Assembly (NCBI GenBank): GCA_944321985.1
Contig: CALUNK010000003.1
Location: 1 to 54,385 of the forward strand
Reading direction: 5' to 3'
Source of the DNA: Candidatus Methanomethylophilaceae archaeon
Lineage (GTDB): Archaea; Thermoplasmatota; Thermoplasmata; Methanomassiliicoccales; Methanomethylophilaceae
DNA length: 54,385 nt
Each line of letters starts with the position of its first letter. The stretch's first letter is position 1. Both the position numbers and the translations under genes were made by a program. Of this stretch, positions 12,141 through 28,650 are shown one piece after another. The notes beneath the pieces were generated by a model that saw only the letters and a program-made list of their open reading frames with translations, did not search any database and had not been told where the DNA came from.

Positions 12141-13511
12141 TCACTCCACGCGCTTATTCTCGCCAAACGGGTCCTGGATAAAGGCCATCAGCCTCGGGTG
12201 CAGTTGGAACGACTTCACAATCTCCCTGAGATCATGGGACCTGAGATAGAAGCCCACCGTTATAGAGACGCACAGCGAGCCGAACGTGTTGGCGAGCATG
12301 TCCCTCAGGGTGTCGAACGGACTGTACTGCATGTTGGTTCCGAAACCTATGTCCACGATGTACTCGAAGACCTCCCAGTATGCGCTGAAGCCCATCATGA
12401 TGACCGCAACGAATATGGACATCGTCCAACCTGAGAAGTTCACCTTGCCGTTGGAGTAGGCGTGGTAGCACATGAGGGTGTAGTACACGCACATCGACAC
12501 CACCACCGACGAGACTGTGTGGGTGACTGTGTCGTAGTAGACCAGCACATCGTACCTCAGCAACAGCACACCGTATGCGTGCAGGAATATGGCCACCGCT
12601 ATGGCGATGATGAACGTCTTCGGCAACGTTATGATATGAGCGTGCTTGAGCGCGACCGGTACGAGACAGAACAGGCCGCAGAATACGCCCGTGTTGACCT
12701 CGTACGTCATCTTCAACCCCGCGGACACGGACAGGATGCTCATCCCGAGGATCACCACGCAGGCGACGATGCATATGGCATCGTCAAGCCCCCACCCCTT
12801 GTCGGGGACGTGGACGGGCTTGTACTCCTTCGGGGAGCATGAGCGGTCGGGCCTCTGCTTGGGGGTCGCAGGCCTGCGGAGTTCCACGGACTGCGTGAAT
12901 TCGCTCTTGTTGTGATGCTTCACCATCTTGGCCGCAATGATTGCGTATACGGCGGATGCGAACGTCGCGACGAAGGGGGACACGATCAGGAGCCTGTTCG
13001 AATACCTCTCCTCACCGTGCTGGAAGTCCCCGTTGAATACCGGGTAGCCGCCGACGTAGAGGTTGACGAACATGAAGAACAGGTCCAGAACAGACACCGC
13101 CAGGGAAATCATCATGGCGAACAGCACCATCCACCTCTTCGTCAGGGTCATGCCGAAGGACCTGTCCATCAGGACGGCCAGCATGAACCCGGAGGTGAAG
13201 CACTGGAGCGCCTGGAATGCCGCATTTATGTATTCCGAATACGAGACGTCCAGGAGCGTGAAGTCCCCGACCGGGAAGACCAGATGGTCGAACAGGTAGT
13301 AGCCCACGACCAGGGCCGGAGCCACCATCGTCATCCAGACGATCCTCCTGTTGTAGTAGTAGCCCACGTCCTTGTAGTAGGGCAGGATCAGGAGCATGAT
13401 GCTCAGGAGATCGACCACGAACCACATCCAGTCGCCCATGAGCAGAGCTACGACTGCCATTGCCGTGGAGACTGCCAGAGACGTGGCGACTAGAGTCTTG
13501 ATCTGGAACAC
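12141..13511 (-). CDS. multi-pass membrane protein, C-terminal YjdF/DUF2238-like
   Basis: A 456-residue integral membrane protein. The N-terminal half has about six membrane segments and I do not recognise it. A central cytoplasmic loop (about 205-245) is charged and proline-rich. The C-terminal half looks like the DUF2238/YjdF family: YYDTVTHTVSS, AYWEVFEYIVDIG and the D-x-x-x-D-M segment of FDTLRDMLANTFG, whose acidic and His residues are the conserved family positions. The function of that family is unknown. The gene is monocistronic, with a TATA-like CGTTATATCC about 20 nt upstream on the minus strand. Confidence 0.75.
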   Translation of the reverse strand: MFQIKTLVATSLAVSTAMAVVALLMGDWMWFVVDLLSIMLLILPYYKDVGYYYNRRIVWMTMVAPALVVGYYLFDHLVFPVGDFTLLDVSYSEYINAAFQALQCFTSGFMLAVLMDRSFGMTLTKRWMVLFAMMISLAVSVLDLFFMFVNLYVGGYPVFNGDFQHGEERYSNRLLIVSPFVATFASAVYAIIAAKMVKHHNKSEFTQSVELRRPATPKQRPDRSCSPKEYKPVHVPDKGWGLDDAICIVACVVILGMSILSVSAGLKMTYEVNTGVFCGLFCLVPVALKHAHIITLPKTFIIAIAVAIFLHAYGVLLLRYDVLVYYDTVTHTVSSVVVSMCVYYTLMCYHAYSNGKVNFSGWTMSIFVAVIMMGFSAYWEVFEYIVDIGFGTNMQYSPFDTLRDMLANTFGSLCVSITVGFYLRSHDLREIVKSFQLHPRLMAFIQDPFGENKRVE

Positions 13512-13615: not shown

Positions 13616-14545
13616 TCAGTTTACGTAGTCCAGCCAGGCCTCGTACTTGGGGTCCTTGCCGGTGACGATGTCATGGAACTTGGCGTGGATGCTCGTGGCG
13701 ACCTTGCCGACCTTGCCGTCGCCGACCGGCCTGCCGTCCAGGCTGGTGACGGGGGCGATCTCCGCCGCGGTCCCGGTCATCCAGACCTCATCCGAGGACA
13801 TCAGCATGAACCTGGAGACCTCTGTCTCGAGGACATCGTAGCCCATGTCCTTGGCGACCTGGATGATGGAGCGCCTGGTGATTCCGTTGAGGATGCTCTC
13901 GGCGGATGCGGGGGTGACGATCTGGCCCTGCAGGTACATGAAGATGTTCTCCCCCGTGCACTCCGCGACATGCCCGACGGAGTTCAGCATGACGGCCTCG
14001 TTGGCCCCCTGGCTGACTGCCTCCCTCTTGGCGAGCGTGGATGCGACGTATGATCCGTTGACCTTGGCCCCGGCGGGTCCGCAGAGGTTGTCGGGCCTCT
14101 GCCAGGAGGACGTGATCAGCTTGGCCCCGGCGTCGGATCCAGTTCCGAGGTAGTTGCCCATGTGGACGCAGGTGATTGCCATGGACACGGGGACACCGAC
14201 GGGGTTGAGTCCAACCTCCTCTCCGCTGAGGAAGACGCAGGGCTTGACATAATCGACCATCTCGCCGTTGGCGCGGACGACGTCCTTGATGGCGTTGCAG
14301 AGGTCTTCGAACCCGTATGCCTTGCCGTCGAACACCAGGTCGATACCCATCATCTTGCATCCGTCCATCATCCTCTGGACATGGTCCTTGAGCCTGAAGA
14401 TGGCCATTCCCTTGGGGGTGTGGTAGACCCTGATGCCCTCGAAGACACCTGTCCCGTAGTTGAGGGCGTGAGCGAGGACGTGAACCTTCGCATCCTCCCA
14501 ATTGACGAGCTTGCCGTTCAGCCAAATCTTTTCCGTCTTGTCCAT
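13616..14545 (-). CDS. ilvE: branched-chain amino acid aminotransferase
   Basis: A 309-residue class-IV PLP enzyme for the last step of valine, isoleucine and leucine synthesis. The Schiff-base lysine is Lys161 in GAKVNGSYVAS. The ALNYGTGVFEGIR start (about residues 27-39) and the ECTGENIF motif (195-202) that contacts PLP and the substrate are intact. It fits standard bacterial/archaeal IlvE length. The leader has AAGGTGATTTC before the ATG and a TATA box about 70 nt upstream that overlaps an 8-bp inverted repeat. The acetolactate synthase regulatory subunit is encoded about 8 kb away; the catalytic subunit is not in the window. Confidence 0.97.
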   Translation of the reverse strand: MDKTEKIWLNGKLVNWEDAKVHVLAHALNYGTGVFEGIRVYHTPKGMAIFRLKDHVQRMMDGCKMMGIDLVFDGKAYGFEDLCNAIKDVVRANGEMVDYVKPCVFLSGEEVGLNPVGVPVSMAITCVHMGNYLGTGSDAGAKLITSSWQRPDNLCGPAGAKVNGSYVASTLAKREAVSQGANEAVMLNSVGHVAECTGENIFMYLQGQIVTPASAESILNGITRRSIIQVAKDMGYDVLETEVSRFMLMSSDEVWMTGTAAEIAPVTSLDGRPVGDGKVGKVATSIHAKFHDIVTGKDPKYEAWLDYVN

Positions 14546-14640: not shown

Positions 14641-15681
14641 TCAGTCGTCCATGGTTCTCAGCAGTTCGTCGACCGCATCAGCGAAGGTGAAGTCCCGCGA
14701 AACACGGATGCCCCTGCACCCGAGACGCCTGCCGAACTCCATGTCCTTCTCGTGATCGCCGATCATGAACGATCTCCTGGGATCGATTCCGTGCTTGGCG
14801 ATGGCGGCGAGACCCATGCCGATCTCCGGCTTCCTGCACGAGCAATGGTCCTCCGGGGTATGGGGGCAGAAGAATATGTCGTCTATGTGCCCGCCGCCGG
14901 CCTCCACGCTCCTCCTGAGCTTGTCGTGTATGCGTCCAAGGGTCTCCTCGTCGAAAAAGCCGCGACCTAGCCCAGACTGGTTGGTGATGATTATGACGAG
15001 AAACCCTGCATCGTTCAGGCGCTTGATGGCCGCCGGAACGAAGTCGTACACCTCGAAGAGATCCGGATCGCTGCAGTACGGGATGTCCTTGGCTACGGTG
15101 TCGTCCCTGTCGATGAACACAGCTCGCTGCCCGAACATCTCCCTTTCGACGATGCCGCACATGGTATGGCACGCGCACAGGTAACCCTCCTGTATGCGGG
15201 GGGTTTCCTTGGACGGTATTACCACCGCGACGTCGACGATCTCCCTGAGCTTCCCGCCGTCCCCGGTGAACGACATCGTCACCGCGCCGCGCTCCTTCGC
15301 CGCCTCCATCGCCAGTATGACGTTCTTGGAGTTGCCGGAGGTGGACATGCCGATGACCACGTCGCCCTTCCTGCATATGCCCTCGACCTGCCTCTTGAAC
15401 ACCAGGTCGTAGCTGTAGTCGTTGCCGATCGCGGTGACAGGGGCGATGTTGGAGAGGCACACGCCGGGAAGCGCCGGACGCTCCAGCATGTACCTGCCGG
15501 AGAACTCCGCCGCGATGTGCTGCGCATCCGCGGAGGATCCGCCGTTACCCATGAAGATTGCCTGGTTCCCGTTCCTGAACGCCTCTATGAGGACATCTGC
15601 TGCCCTGCGGATCTGCGAGGGGTCGATATTCGCAATTGTGTCTGCGCTCCTCTGGAGCTCGGCTTTGATGGCATCATTCAT
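14641..15681 (-). CDS. GmhA-GmhB fusion: sedoheptulose-7-P isomerase and heptose bisphosphate phosphatase
   Basis: A 346-residue two-domain protein. The SIS domain (1-185) matches GmhA, with NGGSSADAQH (46-55), Glu59, MSTSGNSKN (112-120) and His172; Glu59 and His172 correspond to the catalytic pair of GmhA. The HAD domain (186-346) matches GmhB, with the DRDDT nucleophile loop (Asp191, Asp193), the GmhB zinc site CPHTPEDHCSC (Cys272, His274, Cys280, Cys282) and GDHEKD (308-313). One chain should thus isomerise sedoheptulose 7-phosphate and remove the 7-phosphate from heptose 1,7-bisphosphate, the first and third steps of heptose activation. The second step, HddA, is encoded directly upstream, overlapping by 8 nt. 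GGAGGT precedes the ATG at 15681. Confidence 0.9.
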   Translation of the reverse strand: MNDAIKAELQRSADTIANIDPSQIRRAADVLIEAFRNGNQAIFMGNGGSSADAQHIAAEFSGRYMLERPALPGVCLSNIAPVTAIGNDYSYDLVFKRQVEGICRKGDVVIGMSTSGNSKNVILAMEAAKERGAVTMSFTGDGGKLREIVDVAVVIPSKETPRIQEGYLCACHTMCGIVEREMFGQRAVFIDRDDTVAKDIPYCSDPDLFEVYDFVPAAIKRLNDAGFLVIIITNQSGLGRGFFDEETLGRIHDKLRRSVEAGGGHIDDIFFCPHTPEDHCSCRKPEIGMGLAAIAKHGIDPRRSFMIGDHEKDMEFGRRLGCRGIRVSRDFTFADAVDELLRTMDD

Positions 15682-16690
15682 TGGGATACCTCCAGGAGAT
15701 GACTCCCTCGGGTTCGAACATATAGTCCACCACCCTGGCGCCCATGTTCTGGAGCACCTTGGCGACGCTGTACTTGCGGTCGTATCTGCATATGAAGTAC
15801 ATGAAACCGCCACCTCCCGCTCCGGAGACCTTCCCGCCGATGGCGCCCTCGTCCATTGCCGCCTGATACAGTGCGTCTATCTGTGGATTGGACACCTTGT
15901 TGGAGAACTGCTTCTTGTACTCCCATGCCTCGTGGAGGAGCTGGCCCGCGTACACGATGTCCCCCTTCTCCAGGGCGATGACCATCGATGTCGCGATCTC
16001 CTTGGTCTTGTCCAGGGCCACCTCGTTCTGGCCCTTGTTGAACTTGTCCACTTGGCTCTCTATGATGGTGGCGGACTCGCGGGGGTTTCCGGTGTAGCAA
16101 AGAAGGGACGAGTACTGCAGCTCGTTGACGGTGTCCTCCGGGATCCTGACCCTGTTGACGTTGACACCGTACTTGTTGAACTTCATGAAGTTGAAACCGC
16201 CGAATACCGCGGCGTACTGGTCCTGCTTCCCGCCCTTGAGGCCTATCTCCTCCCTCTCGAGCTTGTATGCCAGCTGAGCCATCTCCATGCTTGTGAGCTT
16301 GATGCCCTGCCATTCGCAGATGGCCGCGATGATGGACACGATGACCGTGGAGGAACCTCCGAGACCCGAGCCTGGGGGTGCCTCCGACTGGAGGAACATC
16401 CTGAATCCGTCGGTTATCTCGAAGTGGTTCGTGACCGCCTTGATGAGGTCCATGTTCCCGTCGAGTTTGAGAGGGCCGCCGTCGAGAGGGGCCTGGAACT
16501 TCCCGTAATCCGTGGAATGGACGGACATCGAGTGGTCGTCTGTGGGTGTAATCGTACAGTAGGCGTATCTGTTGATGGTCGTGTTGAATACCGCACCGCC
16601 TTTCTTCGATGCGTATGGCTCCACATCCGTACCTCCCCCTGCAAGACCTAGTCTCAGAGGTGCCCTTGCCCTGAAATGAATCCCATCCAT
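15674..16690 (-). CDS. GHMP kinase, HddA-like heptose-7-phosphate kinase (copy 1)
   Basis: A 338-residue GHMP-superfamily kinase. It has the substrate-side motif APLRLGLAGGGTD (10-22), the ATP loop PPGSGLGGSS (105-114) and the C-terminal SGAGGGGFM motif. This pattern is typical of HddA, which phosphorylates D-glycero-D-manno-heptose 7-phosphate at C1. Overlap with the GmhA-GmhB fusion makes that assignment strong. The start is uncertain: ATG 16690 has GGTGTGA just upstream and gives the usual N-terminus. ATG 16756 adds 22 residues and lies about 30 nt after a TATA box (about 16785-16797), which would fit a leaderless mRNA. Other GHMP kinases of similar sequence act on fucose or mannose derivatives. 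Confidence 0.85.
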   Translation of the reverse strand: MDGIHFRARAPLRLGLAGGGTDVEPYASKKGGAVFNTTINRYAYCTITPTDDHSMSVHSTDYGKFQAPLDGGPLKLDGNMDLIKAVTNHFEITDGFRMFLQSEAPPGSGLGGSSTVIVSIIAAICEWQGIKLTSMEMAQLAYKLEREEIGLKGGKQDQYAAVFGGFNFMKFNKYGVNVNRVRIPEDTVNELQYSSLLCYTGNPRESATIIESQVDKFNKGQNEVALDKTKEIATSMVIALEKGDIVYAGQLLHEAWEYKKQFSNKVSNPQIDALYQAAMDEGAIGGKVSGAGGGGFMYFICRYDRKYSVAKVLQNMGARVVDYMFEPEGVISWRYPNE

Positions 16691-16844
16691 TTTCACACCG
16701 ACCGCTTGGTAGCGGATGCCGAAAACTCCTCTCGGAGCCTGCGTTTCAACACGCATCCCTCGACGTAAACACGGCTACGGAGTCGTGATATATATTGGTT
16801 TCAGCCATTTAGACTAGAAAAATGGAATCTGGCACATGTCACAG

Positions 16845-17822
16845 TCACAGTATGTACCTGGCACCATAGGGTGAGAAGTATCCTCCGCAGAATATGTACA
16901 CGACTGCTCCCGCCGACTCCTCCAGCGAGCCGGTCGTGGTGCCTCCCCTAACATTCACAACCTGGTCGAGGATCACCGCGGAATCGTATGTGACGTTCGA
17001 CGAGACCGTCTGCACCAGGTCGCTGCGAGTGTCGTCGTCGAAATAGCCGCCGATGACGCACAGCATCCCCGACCCGTACTTAGCCAACCCGACCGATCCG
17101 TAACCGGTGTCCGACACGTAGCCTATGTGCTTGGAATCCGGCACGGACGTGGACATCCCGAACTGCACGCTGGAGCTTCTCACGCAGATCGACTCTCCCA
17201 GCGGATCGCCCCTGACGTCCCCGATGACGCTGTCATCGCTATCGTTGAAACACCCCTCCCCGTAGAAGAGCGTCCACCACTCGTCGACCTCCCTTACGGA
17301 GCCGTCCTGGTTTCCGACATACTTGCCGAGGGTCTCGCCCAGCCAATAAAGTGCCCCTCCGGAAGCCGTCCAGTTCAGTATCGGATCGCCCGATACGCCT
17401 TCGTAGACGGTGCTGGGCATCGCGCCGGTTATGAATATGATGCAAGAGCCGCACGGTTCCACGTTCTCGACTACGTCCCTCAGGGCGGCTGCATCGACGA
17501 TGGTGGCATCGACCCCGTGTATCTCCAGGTCCAGAACCAGGGCGTCTATGCTGCCCTCCGCATCCGGCAATCCGATGGTCCCGTAATCCGGATCGAAATA
17601 GACGTAGAACCTCTCGATTGGCCCCACGGATCCGGGATCCAGCTCTATGACCCTGAACTCGGACGCCCCCGAGGATTCGACCGAGTACTCCAGCCCACCT
17701 TCCGATTCGTAGACGTTGCTACCGTACGAATAGGGGTTGACGTAGTACACCGCGACCTCCCCGACCACCATCACGGCCACCATCACGACCAGGATCGCCA
17801 CTGCTGCATCACGACGCACCAT
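16845..17822 (-). CDS. anchored extracytoplasmic partner of GT-C protein (pair 1)
   Basis: A 325-residue protein with one N-terminal membrane segment (about 5-27) and a large outside domain. It is homologous to the protein at 30914-31930: IIFITGAMPSTVYEG matches VIFMTGSFPSEIYNG there, and a later GGY-FDDD-RSDLVQ stretch matches GGDVDNNVASYVAQ. The ITGAMPS...GGALYWLG pattern (strand, loop, helix, GG, strand) recalls glutamine-amidotransferase-like Rossmann domains, but no nucleophile Cys can be assigned. The gene overlaps the end of the GT-C gene by 14 nt. ATG 17822 is used because AGGAGGT lies nine bases upstream. It likely works with the transferase at the outer membrane face; the family is unknown to me. 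Confidence 0.75.
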   Translation of the reverse strand: MVRRDAAVAILVVMVAVMVVGEVAVYYVNPYSYGSNVYESEGGLEYSVESSGASEFRVIELDPGSVGPIERFYVYFDPDYGTIGLPDAEGSIDALVLDLEIHGVDATIVDAAALRDVVENVEPCGSCIIFITGAMPSTVYEGVSGDPILNWTASGGALYWLGETLGKYVGNQDGSVREVDEWWTLFYGEGCFNDSDDSVIGDVRGDPLGESICVRSSSVQFGMSTSVPDSKHIGYVSDTGYGSVGLAKYGSGMLCVIGGYFDDDTRSDLVQTVSSNVTYDSAVILDQVVNVRGGTTTGSLEESAGAVVYIFCGGYFSPYGARYIL

Positions 17823-19185
17823 TCGCACCCGACCTCCTGTCCGCACGACGAATGGATATGTACGTTATGAAAACCGAGTATATGGCCAACGTCTCCAGGG
17901 CCCCGAACACCAGGTTGAGCGCCGACTGGTTGGTCATCCCCAGGACGTTGACCTGGTTCAGCCATTCGATCCCTCCGACTATCGTCTCGCTCGAGACGAA
18001 ACCCAGGAAGGCATCGGCCTGGAACAGTATCCCGTAGTTCTGCAGCACTAACGCGTACACGACGGGTATTGCGAACATTGCCACCAGCGAGTAGCGGTAG
18101 CGCCTGTCGGATACCAGGAAGTGACAGATCAGGAACGGCACCACGATCAGCAGATAGGACGGGACAGGCGTCCAGAGGAACACGGCCGCGGACCCCAACA
18201 GGCAGTACCCGATGAACCTCCTGTCGAGGCCGTCGGGATCAGATTTCTGCAGATAGTATGCCAGGACCACCTGTATCAGGAACACCGCCGGCTGCAACAA
18301 CAGCACAACCGTGTAGCCGTTGGACGAGATCGCATCCCATATCCCGTCGGATTCGCCTTCTATGGACTCTATGCGGTTGAATATGAATCCGAACGATTCC
18401 TCCAACGTGCCGTTGAGGATGTCCGGGATGAAGATGACAAGGAGCATGACAGAGGCCCCGATGACCGACGATGCGACGGAGACGACACACTCGCGCCTGT
18501 TCCCGCGGTTGGAGGCGATGACGTACGCCAGGAAGATGAAAATCAGGTAGGCAGGGAAGAACTTGGAGAAGGCCGCGGCGGAGAACGACATCCCTGCCAG
18601 CAGGTAGTTCCTGTTCAGGAGCATGTACACGGTGAGAACCATGAACAGAACGGAGATCGAATCGAACATCGCCTGAACGCATGACGTGTACACGACCAGG
18701 GGGCAGAGGAACCAGAGGCCGAACGCGACTGCCGCCTTGGTGGAGTCCCCTGTGAGCGAGCGGACGATCCTGTAGAGGAGGTACGACACAGCCAGATCCA
18801 CAAGGGTGAAGGCCACCTTGAACAAGACGTTGAAGCTGTTGTAGGTGATGAGCACCTTGTAGTAGTCCCATGCGACCCCTTGGATTGGAACCAGGGAGTC
18901 GATCTGCGTCCCGAAGACGTCGATCCCGAACAGGAAGTTACCGACCATTCCGATGAATGAGATGAAGTATCCCCAAATCGGAGTGTAATAGTATCCCGGA
19001 AGCTCGAATAGGCCGGCACCCGCCTGCATGTTCGCGATGACGGTCGCCCATGTCGACACGTCATAACAGTACGTGAACAGAACGGCGACGACCGCCCTGA
19101 CCAACAACCCAATAGAGATAATGGACATCAGAGGATGGGTACGAATCCATCCGAACACGGCAGCGGCCCTTACCTCATCCCCCAT
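17809..19185 (-). CDS. GT-C-like multi-pass glycosyltransferase (pair 1)
   Basis: A 458-residue integral membrane protein with about ten or more spans. After the first span there is an outside loop with CYDVSTW, then YYYTPIWGY, the layout of GT-C transferases that use polyprenyl-phosphate sugars, with an acidic residue in the first loop. The protein at 29601-30917 shares these motifs (TYDVSSW, YWYAPTWGY) and later AFSKFFP versus GITKLFP, so the two are paralogues. Each is followed by the same kind of anchored partner gene. It could add a sugar to a lipid-linked glycan or to S-layer protein outside the cell. A TATA-like GTTTAAT lies about 30 nt upstream. Confidence 0.78.
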   Translation of the reverse strand: MGDEVRAAAVFGWIRTHPLMSIISIGLLVRAVVAVLFTYCYDVSTWATVIANMQAGAGLFELPGYYYTPIWGYFISFIGMVGNFLFGIDVFGTQIDSLVPIQGVAWDYYKVLITYNSFNVLFKVAFTLVDLAVSYLLYRIVRSLTGDSTKAAVAFGLWFLCPLVVYTSCVQAMFDSISVLFMVLTVYMLLNRNYLLAGMSFSAAAFSKFFPAYLIFIFLAYVIASNRGNRRECVVSVASSVIGASVMLLVIFIPDILNGTLEESFGFIFNRIESIEGESDGIWDAISSNGYTVVLLLQPAVFLIQVVLAYYLQKSDPDGLDRRFIGYCLLGSAAVFLWTPVPSYLLIVVPFLICHFLVSDRRYRYSLVAMFAIPVVYALVLQNYGILFQADAFLGFVSSETIVGGIEWLNQVNVLGMTNQSALNLVFGALETLAIYSVFITYISIRRADRRSGANGAS

Positions 19186-19290
19186 ATGTTGTGTATCGAT
19201 GTATCAGATTAAACGTTTTTACGGAACCAACGGAAACACCCACACGGTCTGAGTCAAGGTTAATATCAGCCGACGTTGTTGGCCGTCCTC

Positions 19291-20430
19291 ATGAGGATCG
19301 CGATGATGACGGACAGCTGGTACCCCACGAGGGACGGCGTCGTCGCAGGGGTCACCATTCTCAAGGAGTCCCTGGAGGCGCTGGGACACGAGGTCTTCAT
19401 CATAGCCCCGGAGCCTGAGCCCGAATACAGGCAGAAAGGGGTATACTACTTCCCGGCAGTCCGCTTCAAGAGCTACGACGAGTACTACGTGCCCATATAC
19501 CCGTCCAACAAGATCGAGATCCTGAAGGAGATCGACCCGGATGTAATACACATCCATGGCGTGGCCACCATGGCCCTCCGCGGGCTGATCTGCGGCCACA
19601 CCCTCGGTCTCCCCACCGTCATGACGTTCCACACCATGGTGGACGACGCCGCCAAGTACTACTCCCCGATCAAGCTGCCCCCCGAGGTTCTGGACCGCCT
19701 CATCTGGATATACCTGAGGCAGGTTGCCAAGAGGGTGGACGTGGTCGTCACCCCCACCGAGTGCATCGGCGAGGAGCTCAGAGCCAGGAGGGTCCATGCC
19801 AAGAACATGATGGCCATACCGACCGGCGCCAAGACCGACGTCTTCCGTCCCGGGATACCGAGCGAAGACATCAGGGAGAGGTACGGGCTTGTGGGGAAGA
19901 AGGTGATCATCCACGTCGGACGCATATCCTATGAGAAGGAGCTCGACATGGTCATACGCTCGATGGCCGACATGGACGCGGTGCTCCTGGTGGCCGGGAA
20001 GGGTCCCGCGAAGGCGGACATGGAAAAGCTGGTGGACGAGCTGGGCCTGCAGGACAAGGTCATCTTCGCCGGGTTCGTGCCCGACGACGAACTGCCCAGG
20101 TTCTACAATGCGGCAGACATCGCCGTGTCCGCATCCAAGTTCGAGACCCAGGGCCTGACCATCCTCGAGGCGATGGCCTCCGGGAAGACCGTTGCCTGTC
20201 GCAACGGGCGCGCGTTCACCGAAATAATACACGAAGGCGTGAACGGCTACCTGTTCGATGACGAGTCCGGATGCGCTGAGGCCATGAGACGTGCGCTCTC
20301 GGCTCCGGAGAAGGTCAGGGATGCGTCGTACAGGACCGCCCGCGAGAACTCCAGGCAGAGATCTGTCGAGAAGTACCTGCGGGCGTATGAGCTCGCCATC
20401 GAGACCAAGAAGGGGAAAGACGGCAGATGA
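19291..20430 (+). CDS. GT4 glycosyltransferase
   Basis: A 379-residue GT-B-fold transferase. The N-terminal domain starts with MRIAMMTDSWYPTRDGVV and contains HIHGVATMAL and a TFHTMVDD loop. The C-terminal domain has the donor-binding VGRISYEKELDMVI, LVAGKGP, and the acidic pair motif ASKFETQGLTILEAMASG. This is closest to diacylglycerol glucosyl/mannosyltransferase-type GT4 proteins, so the acceptor could be a lipid. The ATG at 19291 lies about 25 nt after TTAATATC, so the mRNA is probably leaderless. The next two genes overlap by a few bases (GT4, VTT-like membrane protein, GT4), forming one operon. Confidence 0.92.
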   Translation: MRIAMMTDSWYPTRDGVVAGVTILKESLEALGHEVFIIAPEPEPEYRQKGVYYFPAVRFKSYDEYYVPIYPSNKIEILKEIDPDVIHIHGVATMALRGLICGHTLGLPTVMTFHTMVDDAAKYYSPIKLPPEVLDRLIWIYLRQVAKRVDVVVTPTECIGEELRARRVHAKNMMAIPTGAKTDVFRPGIPSEDIRERYGLVGKKVIIHVGRISYEKELDMVIRSMADMDAVLLVAGKGPAKADMEKLVDELGLQDKVIFAGFVPDDELPRFYNAADIAVSASKFETQGLTILEAMASGKTVACRNGRAFTEIIHEGVNGYLFDDESGCAEAMRRALSAPEKVRDASYRTARENSRQRSVEKYLRAYELAIETKKGKDGR

Positions 20431-21005
20431 GCTTGGGCGACTGGCTGTTCGGCCTGTTCGGAGGCATGGGGCTGGAGGGTGTGGTAATATGCATCTTTCT
20501 CCTCTTCCTGATAGATGCGTTGCTGTTCCCGACTCTCCCCGAGCTGTTCTTCGTCCTCGCACTGGGACAGTGCCCCACAGTCTGGTTCGGTGGGACCCTG
20601 CTCCTGGCCGCCATACTTGCCGAGCTCATAGGTATTTTCACCCTGTACTATGTTGTCAAACACATACGGGTACCGGAGAGGGTCTCCAGGATCGCTGAGA
20701 AGTACATCGACTTCCTGGTGGTCAGCGATGAACGCATAATCCTGGTGAACCGCGTGGCACCGATGATCCCGTTCCTCGGCGCCTTCATCGCCTTGATCAA
20801 GAGCTGGAGGCCAAAGGTCTGCGCGTTCTACATCACCCTGGGATGCATACTGAAGTACGGCGTCATCGCGCTCGCCAGCGGATTCTTCCTGAACTACCTG
20901 GGTTCCGACGAGGCACAGACGGTCACGCTGGTCTTCATATTCACCATCATAATCATAAGCGTCGTAGCCTCTTTCGTCAAGAAGAGAAGATCGGGGTTGG
21001 AATGA
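20427..21005 (+). CDS. small membrane protein, possibly VTT/DedA-like
   Basis: A 192-residue protein with about five hydrophobic segments. The middle segment NRVAPMIPFLGAFIAL (about residues 108-123) resembles the re-entrant Arg-Pro/Gly motif of VTT (DedA/SNARE-associated) proteins, which move lipids across membranes. The match is partial and the family call is tentative. It overlaps the GT4 genes on both sides (4 nt each), so it is translationally coupled to glycan synthesis. A role in lipid-carrier handling would fit but is inference. Confidence 0.6.
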   Translation: MSLGDWLFGLFGGMGLEGVVICIFLLFLIDALLFPTLPELFFVLALGQCPTVWFGGTLLLAAILAELIGIFTLYYVVKHIRVPERVSRIAEKYIDFLVVSDERIILVNRVAPMIPFLGAFIALIKSWRPKVCAFYITLGCILKYGVIALASGFFLNYLGSDEAQTVTLVFIFTIIIISVVASFVKKRRSGLE

Positions 21006-22078
21006 TGAGGTTCGTAGATGTAAATCCGTTCTTCTACCCTCTGCACGGAGGGATAGAGACGCGCATGCACGACACGGCAAGACTGCTCGCCGAGAGGGGA
21101 CACGACGTGACCGTGCTGACCGGCCGCCTCCCTGACACGGCAGAGGAGGAGACCACAGAGTACGGATACAGGATCGTGCGTCTGAAATCGCGTTTCATCA
21201 ACATATACAACCCGCCGTTCATCTCGTCGGAAGGTGTCCTGGAGGCCCTGCGGTCCCTGGACGCCGACACGGTCAACTACAACTACCGCTGGGCGCCGTC
21301 CTACAACAAGGACCTTGGAAGATACGACGGACACAAGGTGTTCACCTACCACAACATGTGGGGCGAGGGCACAGGGGTGGTGGGGAAGTTCTCCGAGATC
21401 AACGACAACATTTTCCGCAAAACCCTGGACACCTTCGACCACATCATCTGCGTCAGCGACTACGTCAAAGGAGACCTCGCCCGCAGGGGCATCCCGGCAG
21501 AGCGCATGACGACGATCCCGACTTGCCTGGACCTGCCACCGGTGCGGGACACCCCCGAGGGGGACTACATCCTGTCGCTCGGCAGGCTGGTCAAAACAAA
21601 GGGCCTGGACAGCCTCATGGAGGCGATGGTCGACGTGGACTGTAGGCTGATACTCTGCGGAAAGGGTCCCGAGGCCAAGAACCTGCAGAAGCAGGCCGAG
21701 AGACTCGGCATCCTGGACCGCGTGGAGTTCCGCGGATACGTCACCGAGGAGGAGAAGGACAGCCTGATGCGCGGTTGCAGGATGTTCGTCATGCCGTCTA
21801 TTTTCGAATCGTTCGGACTCGCGGCACTGGAGGTGCTGGGTTACGGAAGGCCTCTGGTGTATGGGAACGCAAACGGGCTCCCGGACACCGTGGGAGACGC
21901 CGGAATCGCGGTCACGCCCGGGGATCCGAAGAGCATCGCCGACGGGATCAACAGGTTGTTGGACGATGACTCGCTGAGACACGACCTCGCGTCCAAGGCA
22001 AGAGCCCAGGCGGAGAGGTACACGTGGGACAGGTACATACCCCTGCTGGAGGACGTCCTGCAGGGGAAGAGTGTTTGA
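21002..22078 (+). CDS. GT4 glycosyltransferase
   Basis: A 358-residue GT-B transferase. The N-terminus VDVNPFFYPLHGGIETRMHD carries the Gly-Gly acceptor loop. The C-terminal domain has LSLGRLVKTKGLDSLMEAM, the LCGKGPEA nucleotide loop and the signature MPSIFESFGLAALEVLGYG, with Glu residues contacting the donor sugar. The start codon overlaps the previous stop codon (ATGATGA; 21002 or 21005). It is the last gene of the operon from 19291 and converges on ilvH with a 9-nt gap. Confidence 0.93.
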   Translation: MMRFVDVNPFFYPLHGGIETRMHDTARLLAERGHDVTVLTGRLPDTAEEETTEYGYRIVRLKSRFINIYNPPFISSEGVLEALRSLDADTVNYNYRWAPSYNKDLGRYDGHKVFTYHNMWGEGTGVVGKFSEINDNIFRKTLDTFDHIICVSDYVKGDLARRGIPAERMTTIPTCLDLPPVRDTPEGDYILSLGRLVKTKGLDSLMEAMVDVDCRLILCGKGPEAKNLQKQAERLGILDRVEFRGYVTEEEKDSLMRGCRMFVMPSIFESFGLAALEVLGYGRPLVYGNANGLPDTVGDAGIAVTPGDPKSIADGINRLLDDDSLRHDLASKARAQAERYTWDRYIPLLEDVLQGKSV

Positions 22079-22450: not shown

Positions 22451-22615
22451 ATTTCCCAGACTCCGAACGGGGTCGCATTATTTGGCTCTATCCTGGGGAG
22501 CATGGCCTCGTCCTGCCGGGTACGGATGCCGCCCCGGGCCGCAGCATCGCCGCTCCGCCTTCTCCGCGAACAAACTATATAGAACATACACGTGCGAATT
22601 CGTGGTTCGGATCGC

Positions 22616-23518
22616 ATGACAGAGTCCTCGACCGATAAAATGGATATCGCAATCGGAATCTGCGCCTACAACGAGGCCCAGAACATAGAGCGTTGCATAC
22701 GCTCCATCTATGATCAGGACACCCGCGACGTCAACGTGAAGGAGGTCCTTGTGGTCTCCAGCGGGAGCACCGATGGGACGGACGAAATAGTTCGTAGCCT
22801 GATGACGGAGTACGACAACCTTATTCTCCTGCCCCAGGAGAAGCGTGAGGGCAAGAACTCGGCGATCAACTGCTACCTGGACCACAAGACGTGCAACATC
22901 GTGGCCATGTACAACGCGGACAACGTGTTCATGACCAGGGACTCCCTCTACAAGTTGGTCGAGCCGTTCTTCGACCAACAGGTGGGGATGGTCGGCGGAC
23001 ACCCGGTGCCTACCAATGACAAGGAATCCAAGGTGGGCTTCGCAACCCACATGCTGTGGTCCATGCACCATAACCTCGCGCTGATATACCCCAAGATCGG
23101 GGAGCTTGTGGCATTCAGGGACATCGGCACCCGTCTCCCCACGGACATGCAGTCCGACGAGGATCTGATCAGGATGCGCCTGGAGCAGGCCGGATACAAG
23201 TGCGTCTACGCGCCCGAGGCGACCATTCTCAACCATGGCCCCGACACCGAGGAGGACTTCTACAAACAGAGGCTCAGGGTGAACATCGGGGAGTGCACCA
23301 TGAAGCAGATGCACGACTACGACATACCGTCCTGGAACAGGAAATACGTGGTCAAGGCGATGATGGGGACCGTCCACGACCTCGGATTCCACCCGTTCAA
23401 GATGCTCTACGCCGTCAGACTGGAACTCAAATCCAGGAAGGAGGCGGAGGAGCACGTGAAGCGGGGAGAGGACCGCATGAGCGTCTGGGAGCCGATAAAG
23501 ACCACGAAGAAGCTCTGA
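22616..23518 (+). CDS. GT2-family glycosyltransferase
   Basis: A 300-residue GT-A transferase with the N-terminal IGICAYNEAQNIERCIRS motif and a nucleotide-binding loop ending in MYNADNVF, where the usual DxD is replaced by NAD (Asn-Ala-Asp). The distal DEDLIRMRLEQAGYK segment matches the ED-x-D acid and helix that follow the active site in GT2 proteins. No membrane span is evident. ATG 22616 follows a TATA-like ACTATATAG (about 22573-22582); ATG 22640 (MDIAIGICAYNE) is an alternative. It converges on the nucleotidyltransferase gene with a 1-nt gap. Confidence 0.88.
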   Translation: MTESSTDKMDIAIGICAYNEAQNIERCIRSIYDQDTRDVNVKEVLVVSSGSTDGTDEIVRSLMTEYDNLILLPQEKREGKNSAINCYLDHKTCNIVAMYNADNVFMTRDSLYKLVEPFFDQQVGMVGGHPVPTNDKESKVGFATHMLWSMHHNLALIYPKIGELVAFRDIGTRLPTDMQSDEDLIRMRLEQAGYKCVYAPEATILNHGPDTEEDFYKQRLRVNIGECTMKQMHDYDIPSWNRKYVVKAMMGTVHDLGFHPFKMLYAVRLELKSRKEAEEHVKRGEDRMSVWEPIKTTKKL

Positions 23519-23519
23519 C

Positions 23520-24548
23520 TCAGACCTTCCTTCCCTCGTCCACGACCTCGCCCGGACCGACAACCGTGCCGTCGGCCAGAACGGCGTTCCTCACGACGGC
23601 CCCCTCGCCGATCCTGCATCCACATCCGAGGATCGTGTTCTCGAGTCTGGCGCCTTCCACGATGCATCCGCCCATCACCAGCACATGATCGAGTTCCGAC
23701 CCTATGACGTCGGAACCCGCCAGAACGACGGATTCACTCGCTTTGGATCCGATGACCCTGGACCCGTCGCCCATGTAGAATGAGCCGCGGACCTCGGAAT
23801 CAACGACGTCCCACGTCCTGCCTGCGAACTCCTCAGAGGCAACGGCGAGGTTGGCACCCAGAAGGTCGTGCGGCCTGCCAACGTCCATCCAGATCCCATC
23901 GATCTGGAACCCCTGAATGCGGTGGCCGTCCGCCATGAGCTTCGGGATGAGGTCCTTTGAGAAGTCGTAGAACGCCCCCTCGGGCACGAATCCCAGAACC
24001 GACTTGTCAATGACGTAAACACCGGCGTTTATGAGGTTGGAGAAAACCTCCTCCGGCCTGGGCTTCTCCTTGAACTCGGTTATGCGACCGTCCGGCTGGA
24101 CCCTCGCTATCCCGAACTCGCAGGGATTCTCCACCGGTGTCAGCGAAATGGAGACCGAAGCTCCCGACCTCTGGTGCTCTCTGATCTCGGAAGCTATGTC
24201 GATGGATGCGAAAACATCCCCATTGGCCGCGACGAACACATCATCGAGGCGGTCCTCCACCAGCTTCATTGCCCCTCCGGTGCCCATCGGCTCGTCCTCG
24301 TACGAGTATGTTATCTCCAGCCCCAGGTCGGAACCATCCCCGATGGCGTCCCGCATCTGCTCGGACTTGTATCCGCAGGCGAGGATAACCTCCTCTATTC
24401 CCGCCCTTGCCAGAGATCTCAGCAGATACCACAGGCACGGACGGTCTGCCACGGGGAGGATTATCTTCGGACGGGTCTCCGTCAGTGGAAGAAGTCTCGT
24501 GCCCTTCCCTCCGACCATCACCACTGCCTGTCTGACTTTCCCTACCAT
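23520..24548 (-). CDS. sugar-1-phosphate nucleotidyltransferase (HddC/mannose-1-P guanylyltransferase-like)
   Basis: A 342-residue cytoplasmic enzyme that should form an NDP-sugar. The N-terminal GT-A domain has VMVGGKGTRLLPLTETRPK (about 10-28), the metal-binding AANGDVF and the NAGVYVID motif. The C-terminus (about 255-342) has hexapeptide-like repeats of a left-handed beta-helix. The specificity is open. Because the island encodes heptose isomerase, kinase and phosphatase but no other nucleotidyltransferase, it is the best candidate for the HddC step (heptose 1-phosphate plus GTP). A general mannose- or glucose-1-phosphate enzyme is the alternative. It starts 4 nt after the DUF89 gene, with GGAGGAGTG before the ATG. 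Confidence 0.88.
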   Translation of the reverse strand: MVGKVRQAVVMVGGKGTRLLPLTETRPKIILPVADRPCLWYLLRSLARAGIEEVILACGYKSEQMRDAIGDGSDLGLEITYSYEDEPMGTGGAMKLVEDRLDDVFVAANGDVFASIDIASEIREHQRSGASVSISLTPVENPCEFGIARVQPDGRITEFKEKPRPEEVFSNLINAGVYVIDKSVLGFVPEGAFYDFSKDLIPKLMADGHRIQGFQIDGIWMDVGRPHDLLGANLAVASEEFAGRTWDVVDSEVRGSFYMGDGSRVIGSKASESVVLAGSDVIGSELDHVLVMGGCIVEGARLENTILGCGCRIGEGAVVRNAVLADGTVVGPGEVVDEGRKV

Positions 24549-24552
24549 GGGA

Positions 24553-25431
24553 TCACTCCTCCGGCCTCACCATCTTCACGACGTTTATGTCCATCGGAAC
24601 GCCCATCGCATCGGCCACCGGACGGCACTTGGTCCTGAGGATGTGGACTATCGGGACGTCCAGATGCCTGTCCGAGGTGGCCTCGAAGTTCGCCATCCCC
24701 TTGGCGATGATCAGCCCGCACTTGCGGATCTCTTCGGCCAGCTCCGGCGGCACATCGTCCCAGTCGATGCCTATGTAGAACTTTCCGGTTGAGAGGATCC
24801 TGTCGACCTCGCTGTCCATGCCTATGCGCAGAGCATCATCCATGGTCACATCGTTCAGGATCGGTGCGCCGCGGACCACCGCCACAACACGCTTGCCCAT
24901 GCGCCTTAGCTGCCTTATGAGGACCTTGTCCAGCTGGGATTCCCCGCAGTTGTCGAACATGTACACGACCCCGGGCACACGGGAGAGCTCGTCACGCAGT
25001 GCATCGGTGTCGTCATGCCCGAGGCCCTGCGCCATCATACCTTCGAAGACGGACATGAACTGCTTCGGATCATCGATGGCGGTCCCTGCGCCGAAGTCCA
25101 TTATGTTCCCGACCACGGCGGCCGTCACCGCGGCACGGAGGGGGTCGTCCGAGGACGCGACAGCATCCTCCAGCATCCTCTCGTACGGGGCGGCGACCTC
25201 GTCCGCTTCCTCCTTGATGGCCCGGTACGGGTCCCTGGAATCCAACGCGGCGTAGGAGCGGGAATGCACCTCCGTTGCTATGACCACGGACGCCGTGTCC
25301 GGATCCATCCTCTCCGAGAGGGCATCTACGGCGGCCTTCACGGACTCGAATTCGCGTCCACCCCCCTCGAGACGGGACTGAAACAGGACACGCCTCATGA
25401 GACATGGGGCACAATCGGCAGTGAACCTCAT
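24553..25431 (-). CDS. DUF89/ARMT1-like damage-control phosphatase
   Basis: A 292-residue protein of the DUF89 family, archaeal AF1104-like branch. These are metal-dependent phosphatases thought to clear damaged phosphometabolites such as sugar phosphates. Visible marks are the N-terminal CAPCLMRRVLFQS, the central GNIMDFGAG, the metal-site block MFDNCGESQLDKVLI (about residues 152-166), VRGAPILNDVT and the C-terminal IIAKGMANFEA. The ATG at 25431 gives the family start MRFTADC; the upstream extension is not conserved in type. Its operon partner is the sugar nucleotidyltransferase, which fits a role in removing unwanted sugar phosphates, though this is inference. Confidence 0.88.
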   Translation of the reverse strand: MRFTADCAPCLMRRVLFQSRLEGGGREFESVKAAVDALSERMDPDTASVVIATEVHSRSYAALDSRDPYRAIKEEADEVAAPYERMLEDAVASSDDPLRAAVTAAVVGNIMDFGAGTAIDDPKQFMSVFEGMMAQGLGHDDTDALRDELSRVPGVVYMFDNCGESQLDKVLIRQLRRMGKRVVAVVRGAPILNDVTMDDALRIGMDSEVDRILSTGKFYIGIDWDDVPPELAEEIRKCGLIIAKGMANFEATSDRHLDVPIVHILRTKCRPVADAMGVPMDINVVKMVRPEE

Positions 25432-25460
25432 ATGTACAGCATCCTTAAGAATTAGAAGTT

Positions 25461-25514
25461 CCCGCGGATGACGCCGCGGGGCGTTGTTCTTAACGTGTGG
25501 GGTTTCCCCCACGT
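25461..25514. terminator. two tandem GC hairpins downstream of aEF-1 beta
   Basis: CCCGCGG (25461-25467) pairs with CCGCGGG (25474-25480). Next to it GTGGGG (25497-25502) pairs with CCCCAC (25507-25512). They fill the gap between the aEF-1 beta stop codon and the DUF89 start, both on the minus strand. They most likely end the zinc-ribbon/aEF-1 beta transcript. Confidence 0.5.
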
Positions 25515-25525
25515 TTGGAGCCGTC

Positions 25526-25795
25526 TCAGACGACTGTGTTTGAGACGCACTCGACGTTCTCGATTCCGGGAATGGAGCGGAGGGCGTCCTCGAGCTTTCC
25601 ACCGACCTCTTCGTCGGAGTCATCGATGAGGAATCCGGCGTTGACCTTCATGAGTCCGAAGGCGACGGGGAGGATCTTTGTCTCCAGGAGCTTGACTCCT
25701 GCGGGGAGGATTCCCCCGAGCTGGGCGATGACGTTGTCGAGGTCGACCTCGGTGCTCTCGGGCATCAGGTCGTAGGCTGCAGCGATCTGTCCCAT
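25526..25795 (-). CDS. ef1b: translation elongation factor aEF-1 beta
   Basis: An 89-residue nucleotide-exchange factor for aEF-1 alpha. The whole protein is the single ferredoxin-like domain, with the ILPVAFGLMKVNAGFLIDDS segment and the C-terminal GIENVECVSNTVV typical of archaeal aEF-1 beta. GAGGTGTTGAG precedes the ATG. It is cotranscribed with the zinc-ribbon gene 9 nt upstream, an arrangement conserved in many archaea. Confidence 0.97.
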   Translation of the reverse strand: MGQIAAAYDLMPESTEVDLDNVIAQLGGILPAGVKLLETKILPVAFGLMKVNAGFLIDDSDEEVGGKLEDALRSIPGIENVECVSNTVV

Positions 25796-26043: not shown

Positions 26044-26811
26044 TCATCGTTTGCGCTCTGACGGATACATCTCGTAGTAGTCCACACCATAAATTCTCGC
26101 GACGATCTTGGCGGTGAATTTCCCGAACCCCCACAGCTGGTGGAAAGTCATGATGGGGACCTTCGGATTCAGATGTGAGACCCCCTCTGCCCTCTCTCCG
26201 AAGTCGTACCTGTAGTAGTGCACATCCATGCGACGGTCGGCGTATTTGAGCAGATCCATCAGCACCTTCCACCCACGGAGCTCGAAGTTGTCCCAGTTCC
26301 CCTGGATTATGGGACGGAACACATCGCAGCGTATGGCGAAAAGCCCGCTCATCATGTCCTTGGTGGTCTGCTTGCGGTGGATCATGAAGAACAGTTTGCA
26401 ATAGACCTCGACCAGCTCCGAGCCGAGCGTCCTCTTGAGTCCCATGGCCATCCTGCTGTTCCTCTGACCTACGCAGATGTCGGCCCCCTTGTCCATCTCT
26501 GCGACGATGCCGGCGAGCGCGGAGACCGGATGCTGGAAGTCGCAGTCCATGCACAGCGCGTAGTCCGTGTCCGCGATCTCGAACCCCTGCAGAACGGATG
26601 CGCCGAGGCCCCTGGCGTTCGGGTCGCGGACGTAGAACGTGATCAGCGGGTCAGCTAGCGCCTCTACCTCCTCCCTGCTGCGGTCGGTGGAGTTGTCGTC
26701 CATGAAGAGGATCTTGAAATCCGGGTACTCGGCCCTGATCGCCTTGGCTATGTTGGCTATGTTCTTCTCCTCGTTGTAGGTTGGGATGACTATGGTGCAA
26801 CTTCCCGGCAT
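26044..26811 (-). CDS. GT2 transferase, dolichol-phosphate-mannose-synthase-like
   Basis: A 255-residue GT-A enzyme with CTIVIPTYNEEKNIANIAK at the start, MDDNSTD and the metal motif CMDCDFQHP (DxD-like, about residues 89-97). It then has GLKRTLGSEL, a segment like that of DPM synthases. It probably moves a sugar from an NDP-donor to a polyprenyl phosphate, making the donor used by outside-facing GT-C enzymes such as those at 17809 and 29601. No C-terminal membrane spans are seen. ATG 26811 is preferred over the GTG at 26820 because GGTGA lies five bases before it. The gene is divergent from the second HddA gene. Confidence 0.88.
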   Translation of the reverse strand: MPGSCTIVIPTYNEEKNIANIAKAIRAEYPDFKILFMDDNSTDRSREEVEALADPLITFYVRDPNARGLGASVLQGFEIADTDYALCMDCDFQHPVSALAGIVAEMDKGADICVGQRNSRMAMGLKRTLGSELVEVYCKLFFMIHRKQTTKDMMSGLFAIRCDVFRPIIQGNWDNFELRGWKVLMDLLKYADRRMDVHYYRYDFGERAEGVSHLNPKVPIMTFHQLWGFGKFTAKIVARIYGVDYYEMYPSERKR

Positions 26812-26946
26812 GTGTTTCACCGTTCGTGGGCCTGCCTAGGGTGGCAGAATCAGACGAGAGACCGACGAACCCCGAGGGAATATAAAGGTTTGTGAATCGC
26901 AGGATTCGTTCGTAGAACCTAAATATCAATGTCCTGATGAAAGGTC

Positions 26947-27951
26947 ATGATTGTGACCAGGACGCCCCTCAGAGTGAGCTTCTGTGGTGGCGGAAGCGAT
27001 ATTCCTTCGTTCTACACGAAGCACGGCGGATGCGTTGTAAGCACGGCCATCGACAAGTACGTCTACCTGGCCATTCACAAGTCGTTCTATCCGGACAAGT
27101 ACATCCTGAAGTACTCCGACATAGAACGCGTCGAGTCCCCCGACATGATCAACCACCCCATCTTCCGCGAATGCATAAAGGACTACGGCCTGGGGCCTGT
27201 CGAGATCACCAGCATGGCCGACGTCCCCGCCGGAACCGGTCTCGGATCCTCCAGTTCGTTCTCCGTCGGACTCCTGCACGCGATAAGAGCCTTCGTCGGG
27301 ATGGAATCCGACAAGGAGCTGCTGGCCTCTGAGGCCTGCAGGCTCGAGATCGAGAAACTGGGGGAACCCATAGGCAAACAGGATCAGTACGCTGCCGCAT
27401 ACGGCGGCCTCAGGTACTACAGGTTCGAAAAGGACGGGAGGGTCACGGTCGAACCGGTGAACGTCACGAAGGATGGCCTTCGCGAACTGGAGTCCAGCCT
27501 GATGATGTTCTACACGGGCAAGACCCGCAAGGCATCCTCCATCCTCACCGAGCAGAGCAAGAACATAACCTCGGGATCCGCAGAGGAGTACCAGCTCAAG
27601 CTTTGCAGGATGACGGATGACCTCAAGAAGAGCCTGGAGGACGGCGATTTTAACCGCTTCGGAAAAATCCTGGATGAGAGCTGGGAGATCAAGAAGAAAC
27701 TGGCCTCCGGCATCAGCTCGGCATTCATCGACCAGTGCTTCGAAACCGCGAAAGAGAACGGAGCGACGGGAGGAAAGCTTCTAGGCGCCGGAGGGGGCGG
27801 GTTCATACTCCTGTATGTGCCCGATGATGCCCGCGCCCAGGTTCGCGACGTCATGTCCGCTAAGTGCAAGGAGATGGAATTCGGCTTCGACCGGGAAGGC
27901 TCGGTACAGATTTATAATGACAGACTATCCGGGACTCATGACCGTCCGTGA
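26947..27951 (+). CDS. GHMP kinase, HddA-like heptose-7-phosphate kinase (copy 2)
   Basis: A 334-residue GHMP kinase with RTPLRVSFCGGGSD (5-18), the ATP loop PAGTGLGSSS (94-103) and GAGGGGFI near the C-terminus. It resembles the HddA family more closely in its start than copy 1 does, which has RLGLAGGGTD. The two are related but clearly diverged, so they may act on different sugars. The GmhA-like gene overlaps its 3' end by 35 nt, which strongly links the two. ATG 26947 lies about 25 nt after CCTAAATATC, so the mRNA is probably leaderless. Confidence 0.86.
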   Translation: MIVTRTPLRVSFCGGGSDIPSFYTKHGGCVVSTAIDKYVYLAIHKSFYPDKYILKYSDIERVESPDMINHPIFRECIKDYGLGPVEITSMADVPAGTGLGSSSSFSVGLLHAIRAFVGMESDKELLASEACRLEIEKLGEPIGKQDQYAAAYGGLRYYRFEKDGRVTVEPVNVTKDGLRELESSLMMFYTGKTRKASSILTEQSKNITSGSAEEYQLKLCRMTDDLKKSLEDGDFNRFGKILDESWEIKKKLASGISSAFIDQCFETAKENGATGGKLLGAGGGGFILLYVPDDARAQVRDVMSAKCKEMEFGFDREGSVQIYNDRLSGTHDRP

Positions 27952-28516: not shown

Positions 28517-28650
28517 TACCGAGCCGACCGAGAGCATGCGGCCCTGACATGGACCGTCAGCCGGAATGGACAGAAAACCTGTCACGTGTGCCAGGTATTC
28601 AGAAAGACTTCTACCACCCCTTTATATCCCTGCTGTCGGTTGGTCGAACG

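Follow-up and report, generated by a model that had tools for sequence, protein, structure and literature searches.

PIG-M, PIG-U and ALG6 are lipid-phosphate-sugar enzymes or relatives of such enzymes. GPI mannosyltransferase I uses Dol-P-Man as donor and GlcN-(acyl)PI as acceptor, and both Asp residues of its DxD motif are needed. We know of no obligate outside partner for enzymes of the GT87 and Alg6_Alg8 types. Alg6, for instance, has been described as a monomer (PMC12653191). Both Gpi14 and PIG-U function together with a luminal protein that spans the membrane once, and in Gpi14-Pbn1 the Pbn1 helix packs on the GT-C subunit while both subunits form the luminal-side catalytic channel (PMC12653191). 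PIG-M is stabilised by PIG-X (PMC7125958), and the partner in GPI mannosyltransferase I is an essential, single-span protein with a large domain on the catalytic side (PMC12653191, PMC7125958). PIG-U has SSW where DxD stood and has lost the catalytic Asp (PMC12653191). In oligosaccharyltransferase, the single-span subunit Wbp1/OST48 carries a GIFT domain, which is considered similar to beta-galactosidases and has a proposed role in sugar binding (PMC7226087).

Two gene pairs of comparable architecture are found in a 54,385-nucleotide stretch of DNA (hereafter the window), which is contig C3 of a Methanomethylophilaceae archaeon with a genome of 1.78 Mb that is 86% complete. Loci related to the window come from Methanomethylophilaceae and Methanomassiliicoccales archaea. 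The four genes are as follows.

17809 to 19185, minus strand: GT-C1, a polytopic GT-C glycosyltransferase of 458 amino acids with a catalytic-type Asp42 (Pfam PIG-U, E 4e-8)
16845 to 17846, minus strand: partner 1, a protein with an N-terminal single span and an extracytoplasmic GATase-like/beta domain (AlphaFold2 model and Foldseek)
29601 to 30917, plus strand: GT-C2, a homologue of GT-C1 (BLASTP E 4e-53; Pfam GT87, E 1e-6)
30914 to 31930, plus strand: partner 2, a homologue of partner 1 (BLASTP E 2e-23) that overlaps GT-C2

The GT-C gene precedes the partner gene in both pairs, which span 16845-19185 (minus strand) and 29601-31930 (plus strand). An initial annotation had described a GT-C enzyme and an anchored protein at the first site, and a second pair in which both members are homologous to the first. 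The ORF calls match this description, and BLASTP bears out the homology, with 25% identity over 299 amino acids between the partners (E 2e-23) and 34% over 340 amino acids between the GT-C proteins (E 4e-53). For pair 1, taking the ATG at 17822 as the start of partner 1 gives the stated 14-nucleotide overlap, and taking the upstream GTG at 17846 gives 38 nucleotides. The GTGA overlap given for pair 2 is correct. The sequence motifs are also present, namely YDVS(S/T)W and Y-x-P-x-WGY in the transferases and, in the partners, one that we see as IF(I/M)TG-x-x-PS-x-x-Y. Their core residues are kept in the wider family, with D42 in 51 of 52 aligned GT-C sequences, Y67, P69, G72 and Y73 in all 52, and P144 and W159 in 44 of 44 partners.

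The GT-C protein adopts the polytopic fold of the GT-C superfamily. The AlphaFold2 model of GT-C1 (pLDDT 86.8, pTM 0.88) is nearest by Foldseek to PIG-U, the top match, to Candida Gpi14 (TM 0.58/0.64) and to ALG6, and ArnT is also matched. Likeness to the GT87 and Alg6_Alg8 enzymes is seen in Pfam, where the 52 GT-C members match GT87 (32), PIG-U (25), Alg6_Alg8 (17) and PIG-M (7). When the GT-C profile was compared with the PDB, structures of GPI mannosyltransferase 1 were the only significant relatives (E 2e-14). Position 42, which homology and the model would place in the first extracytoplasmic loop, is always acidic (Asp in 51 of 52 sequences, Glu in the other), and R30, Y67, P69, G72, Y73, D130, K208, F210, F267 and R271 are invariant in all 52. 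Because Asp42 is kept where PIG-U has lost the corresponding motif, the sequences indicate that the archaeal GT-C is most likely catalytically active. Position 44, the second Asp of DxD, is Asp in just 6 of the 52 sequences, and the protein is therefore not a PIG-M by this motif. Unlike the catalytic subunit of oligosaccharyltransferase, it is not STT3-like either; a separate STT3-family gene lies elsewhere in the host genome.

There is no Pfam or NCBIfam family that covers the partner (44 partners were scanned in Pfam). The AlphaFold2 model of partner 1 (pLDDT 88.6, pTM 0.83) has one helix at residues 11-35, after which come a long beta pair, a core of Rossmann/GATase-like fold and a beta domain. 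Of its 732 Foldseek matches, the best 50 comprise GH42 beta-galactosidases along with further glycoside-active enzymes, at low TM scores (0.36-0.41), and as modelled these would be consistent with the GATase-like accessory domain of GH42-type enzymes. Since the model has no TIM barrel, the GH42 likeness must lie in this accessory part and not in the catalytic barrel. No conserved Cys and no majority-Cys column is found among the 44 partner sequences; thus, there is no GATase nucleophile and the partner does not classify as a class I glutamine amidotransferase. The invariant positions in these 44 sequences are Gly, Pro and Trp, and the best-conserved positions also include Tyr.

A PIG-X-like identity for the partner was rejected as homology, given that no PIG-X or Pbn1 chain appears when the PDB is searched by profile up to E 10 or among the best 50 of the 732 Foldseek matches. 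DDOST/GIFT is likewise absent from the Pfam families listed for the 44 partners and from the PDB sequence matches, and no OST48 structure is among the best 50 of the 732 Foldseek matches. The shared likeness of the GIFT domain and the partner to beta-galactosidases is an analogy that might serve as a lead.

The two genes are tightly coupled within the family. With a two-sequence profile, 78 of 102 family genomes had the partner and 81 had the GT-C, and a 44-sequence partner profile raised the former to 80. Partner 1 alone as query gave no match in the contig scan, and the scan for related loci used a closer subset of the partner alignment, the 44-row alignment being too divergent. There are 118 partner matches in the 102 genomes, and 115 of them directly adjoin a same-strand GT-C gene. 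Contig ends truncate the remaining three, one of which sits beside a GT-C fragment. The initial annotation held that its proposal would fail if partner homologues were usually found without a GT-C gene, and the opposite is observed. The junctions are mostly overlaps of 4-59 nucleotides or gaps of a few bases. Among the 115 adjacent cases, the GT-C gene comes first in 62, the partner comes first in 40, and GT-C genes lie on both sides in 13. Both gene orders exist, and so this obligate adjacency does not reflect one frozen arrangement. About 10 GT-C matches have no adjoining partner match; several of these sit at the end of a contig, while others, in G064, G065 and G093, do not.

Some loci have an expanded architecture. 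Triples in which two different same-strand GT-C genes flank one partner are found at L007, L015, L016, L021, L025, L028 and L057, which suggests that one partner may serve two enzymes or that a trimer may form. The largest expansion seen (G093:C3:27436-37396) places four or more GT-C genes and two partners in one run in a single genome.

The pairing extends beyond the family. Every one of the 13 loci examined from four further families of the order is paired. Four of these are partner matches that each adjoin a GT-C gene, and nine further loci were chosen by GT-C match alone, all nine of which have an adjoining, weakly matching partner with an N-terminal span. More distant members of the class and phylum (Thermoplasmatota) also carry the pair. 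Because the pairing recurs in 80 family genomes and in other families and orders, the chance that it is coincidental is negligible. In addition, the two proteins form a single polypeptide in five cases from three families of Thermoplasmatota. Each of these fusions is known from one MAG contig, and the frames contain no unknown residues.

L137 (1-2442): GT-C-partner fusion of 814 amino acids in one open frame
L164 (736-3135): GT-C-partner fusion of 800 amino acids in one open frame
L166 (3090-5828): GT-C-partner fusion of 913 amino acids in one open frame
L169: GT-C-partner fusion of 899 amino acids in one open frame
L171: GT-C-partner fusion of 1332 amino acids, stop to stop, in one open frame

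An apparent fusion at L046 (G099) was discarded as an artefact, where a run of N spans the junction. Partner-like matches in f34, another family of the phylum (L140, 4895-5929, minus strand; L141, 5564-6655, plus strand) cover the Rossmann-like half only, have two C-terminal spans and have no GT-C neighbour. These were treated as a different GATase-like family, possibly the wider family from which the partner originated. Matches in f35 (E 3e-4 to 8e-4) were treated as chance.

Distances among partners and among GT-C proteins are correlated (r 0.76, 56 pairs). When partners were shuffled within the 24 genomes that have two or more pairs, the correlation fell to 0.29 +/- 0.11 and none of 5000 shuffles reached 0.76. 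This co-divergence is not independent proof of contact, since linked adjacent genes diverge together anyway.

The pairs lie in a neighbourhood of glycan genes.

12141 to 13511, minus strand: polytopic membrane protein with no Pfam match
13616 to 14545, minus strand: class IV aminotransferase, a conserved neighbour (PF01063, E 3e-43; homologues beside pairs are 67-94% identical)
14641 to 15813, minus strand: GmhA-GmhB fusion, sedoheptulose-7-phosphate isomerase and heptose bisphosphate phosphatase (TIGR00441, E 1e-51; NF006506, E 3e-43)
15674 to 16756, minus strand: heptose-7-phosphate kinase of the HddA-like type, immediately after partner 1 (NF049969, E 2e-88, under the curated cut-off; PDB 3k85, E 9e-78)
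19276 to 20430, plus strand: GT4 glycosyltransferase (PF00534, E 2e-34)
20843 to 22078, plus strand: GT4 glycosyltransferase (PF00534, E 2e-35)
22592 to 23518, plus strand: GT2 glycosyltransferase, a neighbour kept across the order with homologues beside pairs (PF00535, E 2e-24)
23520 to 24548, minus strand: sugar-1-phosphate nucleotidylyltransferase, GMPP/HddC-like (PF00483, E 2e-45; NCBIfam man1P_GTase, E 2e-71)
24553 to 25623, minus strand: ARMT1-like damage-control phosphatase, a conserved neighbour (PF01937, E 1e-58)
26044 to 26820, minus strand: GT2 of 258 amino acids, dolichol-phosphate mannose synthase (DPMS)-like (PDB 5mlz, DPMS, E 7e-20)
26947 to 27951, plus strand: second HddA-like kinase, one of the genes that lead up to GT-C2 (NF049969, E 1e-48)
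27815 to 28516, plus strand: second GmhA-like isomerase, also among the genes leading up to GT-C2 (TIGR00441, E 6e-31)
28549 to 29604, plus strand: protein of 351 amino acids upstream of GT-C2, which it overlaps by 4 nucleotides (ORF call)
31910 to 32944, minus strand: GT4 glycosyltransferase (PF00534, E 3e-18)
33221 to 34711, plus strand: Wzx-type flippase (PF01943, E 4e-24)

Pair 1 is followed on the same strand by the HddA-like kinase, the GmhA-GmhB fusion (E 3e-47 to a PDB phosphoheptose isomerase) and the aminotransferase. The second HddA-like kinase and the second GmhA-like isomerase precede pair 2 on the plus strand, and so a unit of kinase, isomerase, GT-C and partner is present twice. 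Both pairs thus lie in apparent operons with heptose-synthesis genes, and the set expected for GDP-D-glycero-D-manno-heptose (GmhA, GmhB, HddA and HddC) is found in the locus. The identity of the product sugar is nevertheless inferred, because the scores of the heptose genes fall below the NCBIfam curated cut-offs. HddA-like genes are present in 75 of the 102 family genomes. Both HddA and the partner occur in 69 genomes, neither in 16 and only one of them in 11 and 6 (Fisher p 2e-7, with related genomes being non-independent). Forty-three genomes carry HddA and the pair on the same contig, and in 42 of them the two are no more than 20 kb apart. No heptose genes were seen near the pair in the stretches read from other families of the order, so that at order level the link to heptose does not hold everywhere. 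A near-complete NDP-heptose pathway in an archaeon is an observation in its own right (window 14641-16756, minus strand; 23520-24548, minus strand; 26947-28516, plus strand), and archaeal NDP-heptose enzymes have already been reported (PMC11573728).

The GT2 gene at 26044-26820, located between the two pairs and nearest to archaeal dolichol-phosphate mannose synthase, likely makes a lipid-linked donor. A DPMS-like gene shares a contig with the partner in 52 genomes, 47 of which place the two no more than 20 kb apart. At E 1e-10, the genes at 26044-26820 and 22592-23518 are the only GT2 genes in the host genome. Pairs from other families of the order are also accompanied by DPMS-like, nucleotidyltransferase and ARMT1-like phosphatase genes and by the second GT2. 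Pair, HddA and DPMS-like gene are all absent from three near-complete genomes of the genus to which the window belongs (G050, G054 and G055), which have no GT2 match at E 1e-10 either; this lineage seems to have lost the surface glycan entirely.

Several other features of the neighbourhood were observed. In several families of the order the ARMT1-like phosphatase adjoins the sugar nucleotidyltransferase, and it may be a missing sugar-phosphate phosphatase of the pathway. Homologues of the 12141-13511 membrane protein (24-46% identity) are found near pairs, sometimes twice (L094, L096 and L101). The protein at 28549-29604, which has no Pfam or NCBIfam match, is possibly an unrecognised glycosyltransferase. 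DPMS-like matches in G011, G012, G016, G063, G073 and others contain one in-frame TAG or TGA inside the matched stretch; a TAG may be read through in pyrrolysine-using lineages, or the codon may simply be the terminal stop. Minus-strand ORFs of no recognised kind at 20894-21982 and 22478-23563 were set aside as apparent shadows of the plus-strand GT4 and GT2 genes.

The best reading of these data is that the archaeal pair works like a two-subunit GT-C enzyme such as GPI mannosyltransferase I (Gpi14-Pbn1 in yeast, PIG-M-PIG-X in mammals), in which a GT-C catalytic subunit is likewise joined to a single-span protein, but with a partner family that is new and looks unrelated. The archaeal partner is unlike Pbn1 and PIG-X in being anchored at its N terminus and built on a GATase-like core, and it has no sequence match or listed fold match to them; unlike PIG-M, the archaeal GT-C usually lacks the second Asp of DxD. 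By these two tested features, DxD and partner family, the pair is not a GPI mannosyltransferase I. It resembles PIG-U/PIG-T of the GPI transamidase in combining a GT-C-fold subunit with a single-span outside partner, and differs from it in keeping D42. It also recalls the GT-C complex of STT3 with Wbp1/OST48, through the GH42 matches of the partner.

We consider it probable that the GT-C and its partner are obligate subunits of one extracytoplasmic transferase that depends on a polyprenyl-phosphate sugar and builds a surface glycan, with a catalytic GT-C and a non-catalytic partner. The DPMS-like GT2 of the locus would charge polyprenyl (dolichyl) phosphate with mannose or heptose, and it is this neighbouring gene alone that points to a Dol-P-sugar donor. 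At the outer face of the membrane, the GT-C would use Asp42 as base to transfer the sugar to a lipid-linked (membrane-linked) or surface glycan acceptor. The single N-terminal helix would tether the partner beside the GT-C, so placing its GATase-like/beta domain over the catalytic face outside the cell. There the partner would most likely stabilise the enzyme and help to position the acceptor glycan or shape the acceptor site, taking no part in catalysis. Each copy in the window would then serve one linkage of a heptose/mannose-type surface glycan.

Perhaps the partner is instead what the neighbouring GT-C glycosylates, a surface glycoprotein or lipoprotein dedicated to it as substrate and no subunit of the enzyme. 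A protein that is exported, membrane-anchored and always adjoins a transferase fits this description, but its best-conserved positions are structural (Gly, Pro, Trp and Tyr), and neither fusion to the enzyme nor co-varying copies would be expected of a substrate. We regard this as unlikely. The GATase-like/GH42-like fold, together with the glycan genes around the pair, could also mean that the partner works independently as an exported hydrolase of the same glycan (glycosidase, esterase or amidase) and is linked to the GT-C by pathway only. With no conserved Cys there is no GATase nucleophile, the lack of a TIM barrel in the model would make the GH42 match an accessory part, and the fusions put the partner directly on the GT-C, which leaves an independent hydrolase very unlikely.

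Least credible to us is that the GT-C is a dead, PIG-U-like scaffold and the pair belongs to a transamidase-like anchoring complex. PIG-U is indeed among the best Pfam and Foldseek matches of the GT-C, and PIGU-PIGT is likewise a pair of GT-C and single-span luminal proteins (PMC12653191). However, the Asp of the first loop, missing from PIG-U (SSW for DxD, PMC12653191), is kept in 51 of 52 sequences, a DPMS-like donor synthase and sugar-nucleotide genes are close by, and no C13 peptidase is found among the Pfam-scanned neighbours.

The two-part glycosyltransferase proposed by the initial annotation is thus supported by the adjacency in 115 of 118 cases, the five fusions and the absence of a Pfam or NCBIfam family for the partner. 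Its suggestion that such an enzyme may be undescribed stands in part. The archaeal pair and the partner family appear to be undescribed in Pfam, NCBIfam and the literature searched, but two-subunit GT-C enzymes as a kind are known from Gpi14-Pbn1/PIG-M-PIG-X and Gpi18-Pga1.

A two-subunit transferase of this type would give an unclassified protein family a strong functional hypothesis. The Methanomassiliicoccales are common gut methanogens whose surface glycans are little described in the literature searched, and the pair offers a concrete machine for making one. For GPI mannosyltransferase I and other two-subunit GT-C enzymes of the ER, it would also supply prokaryotic models that are simple and in some cases consist of a single chain. 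More tentatively, and in our view less likely than not, the pairs might form a prokaryotic class of heterodimeric GT-C enzymes across Thermoplasmatota, with an obligate GIFT/GATase-like ectodomain subunit that is sometimes fused, as an archaeal counterpart of Gpi14-Pbn1, PIGU-PIGT and STT3-OST48. If this is true, it would suggest that the pairing of a GT-C protein with such a luminal subunit did not begin in the eukaryotic ER.
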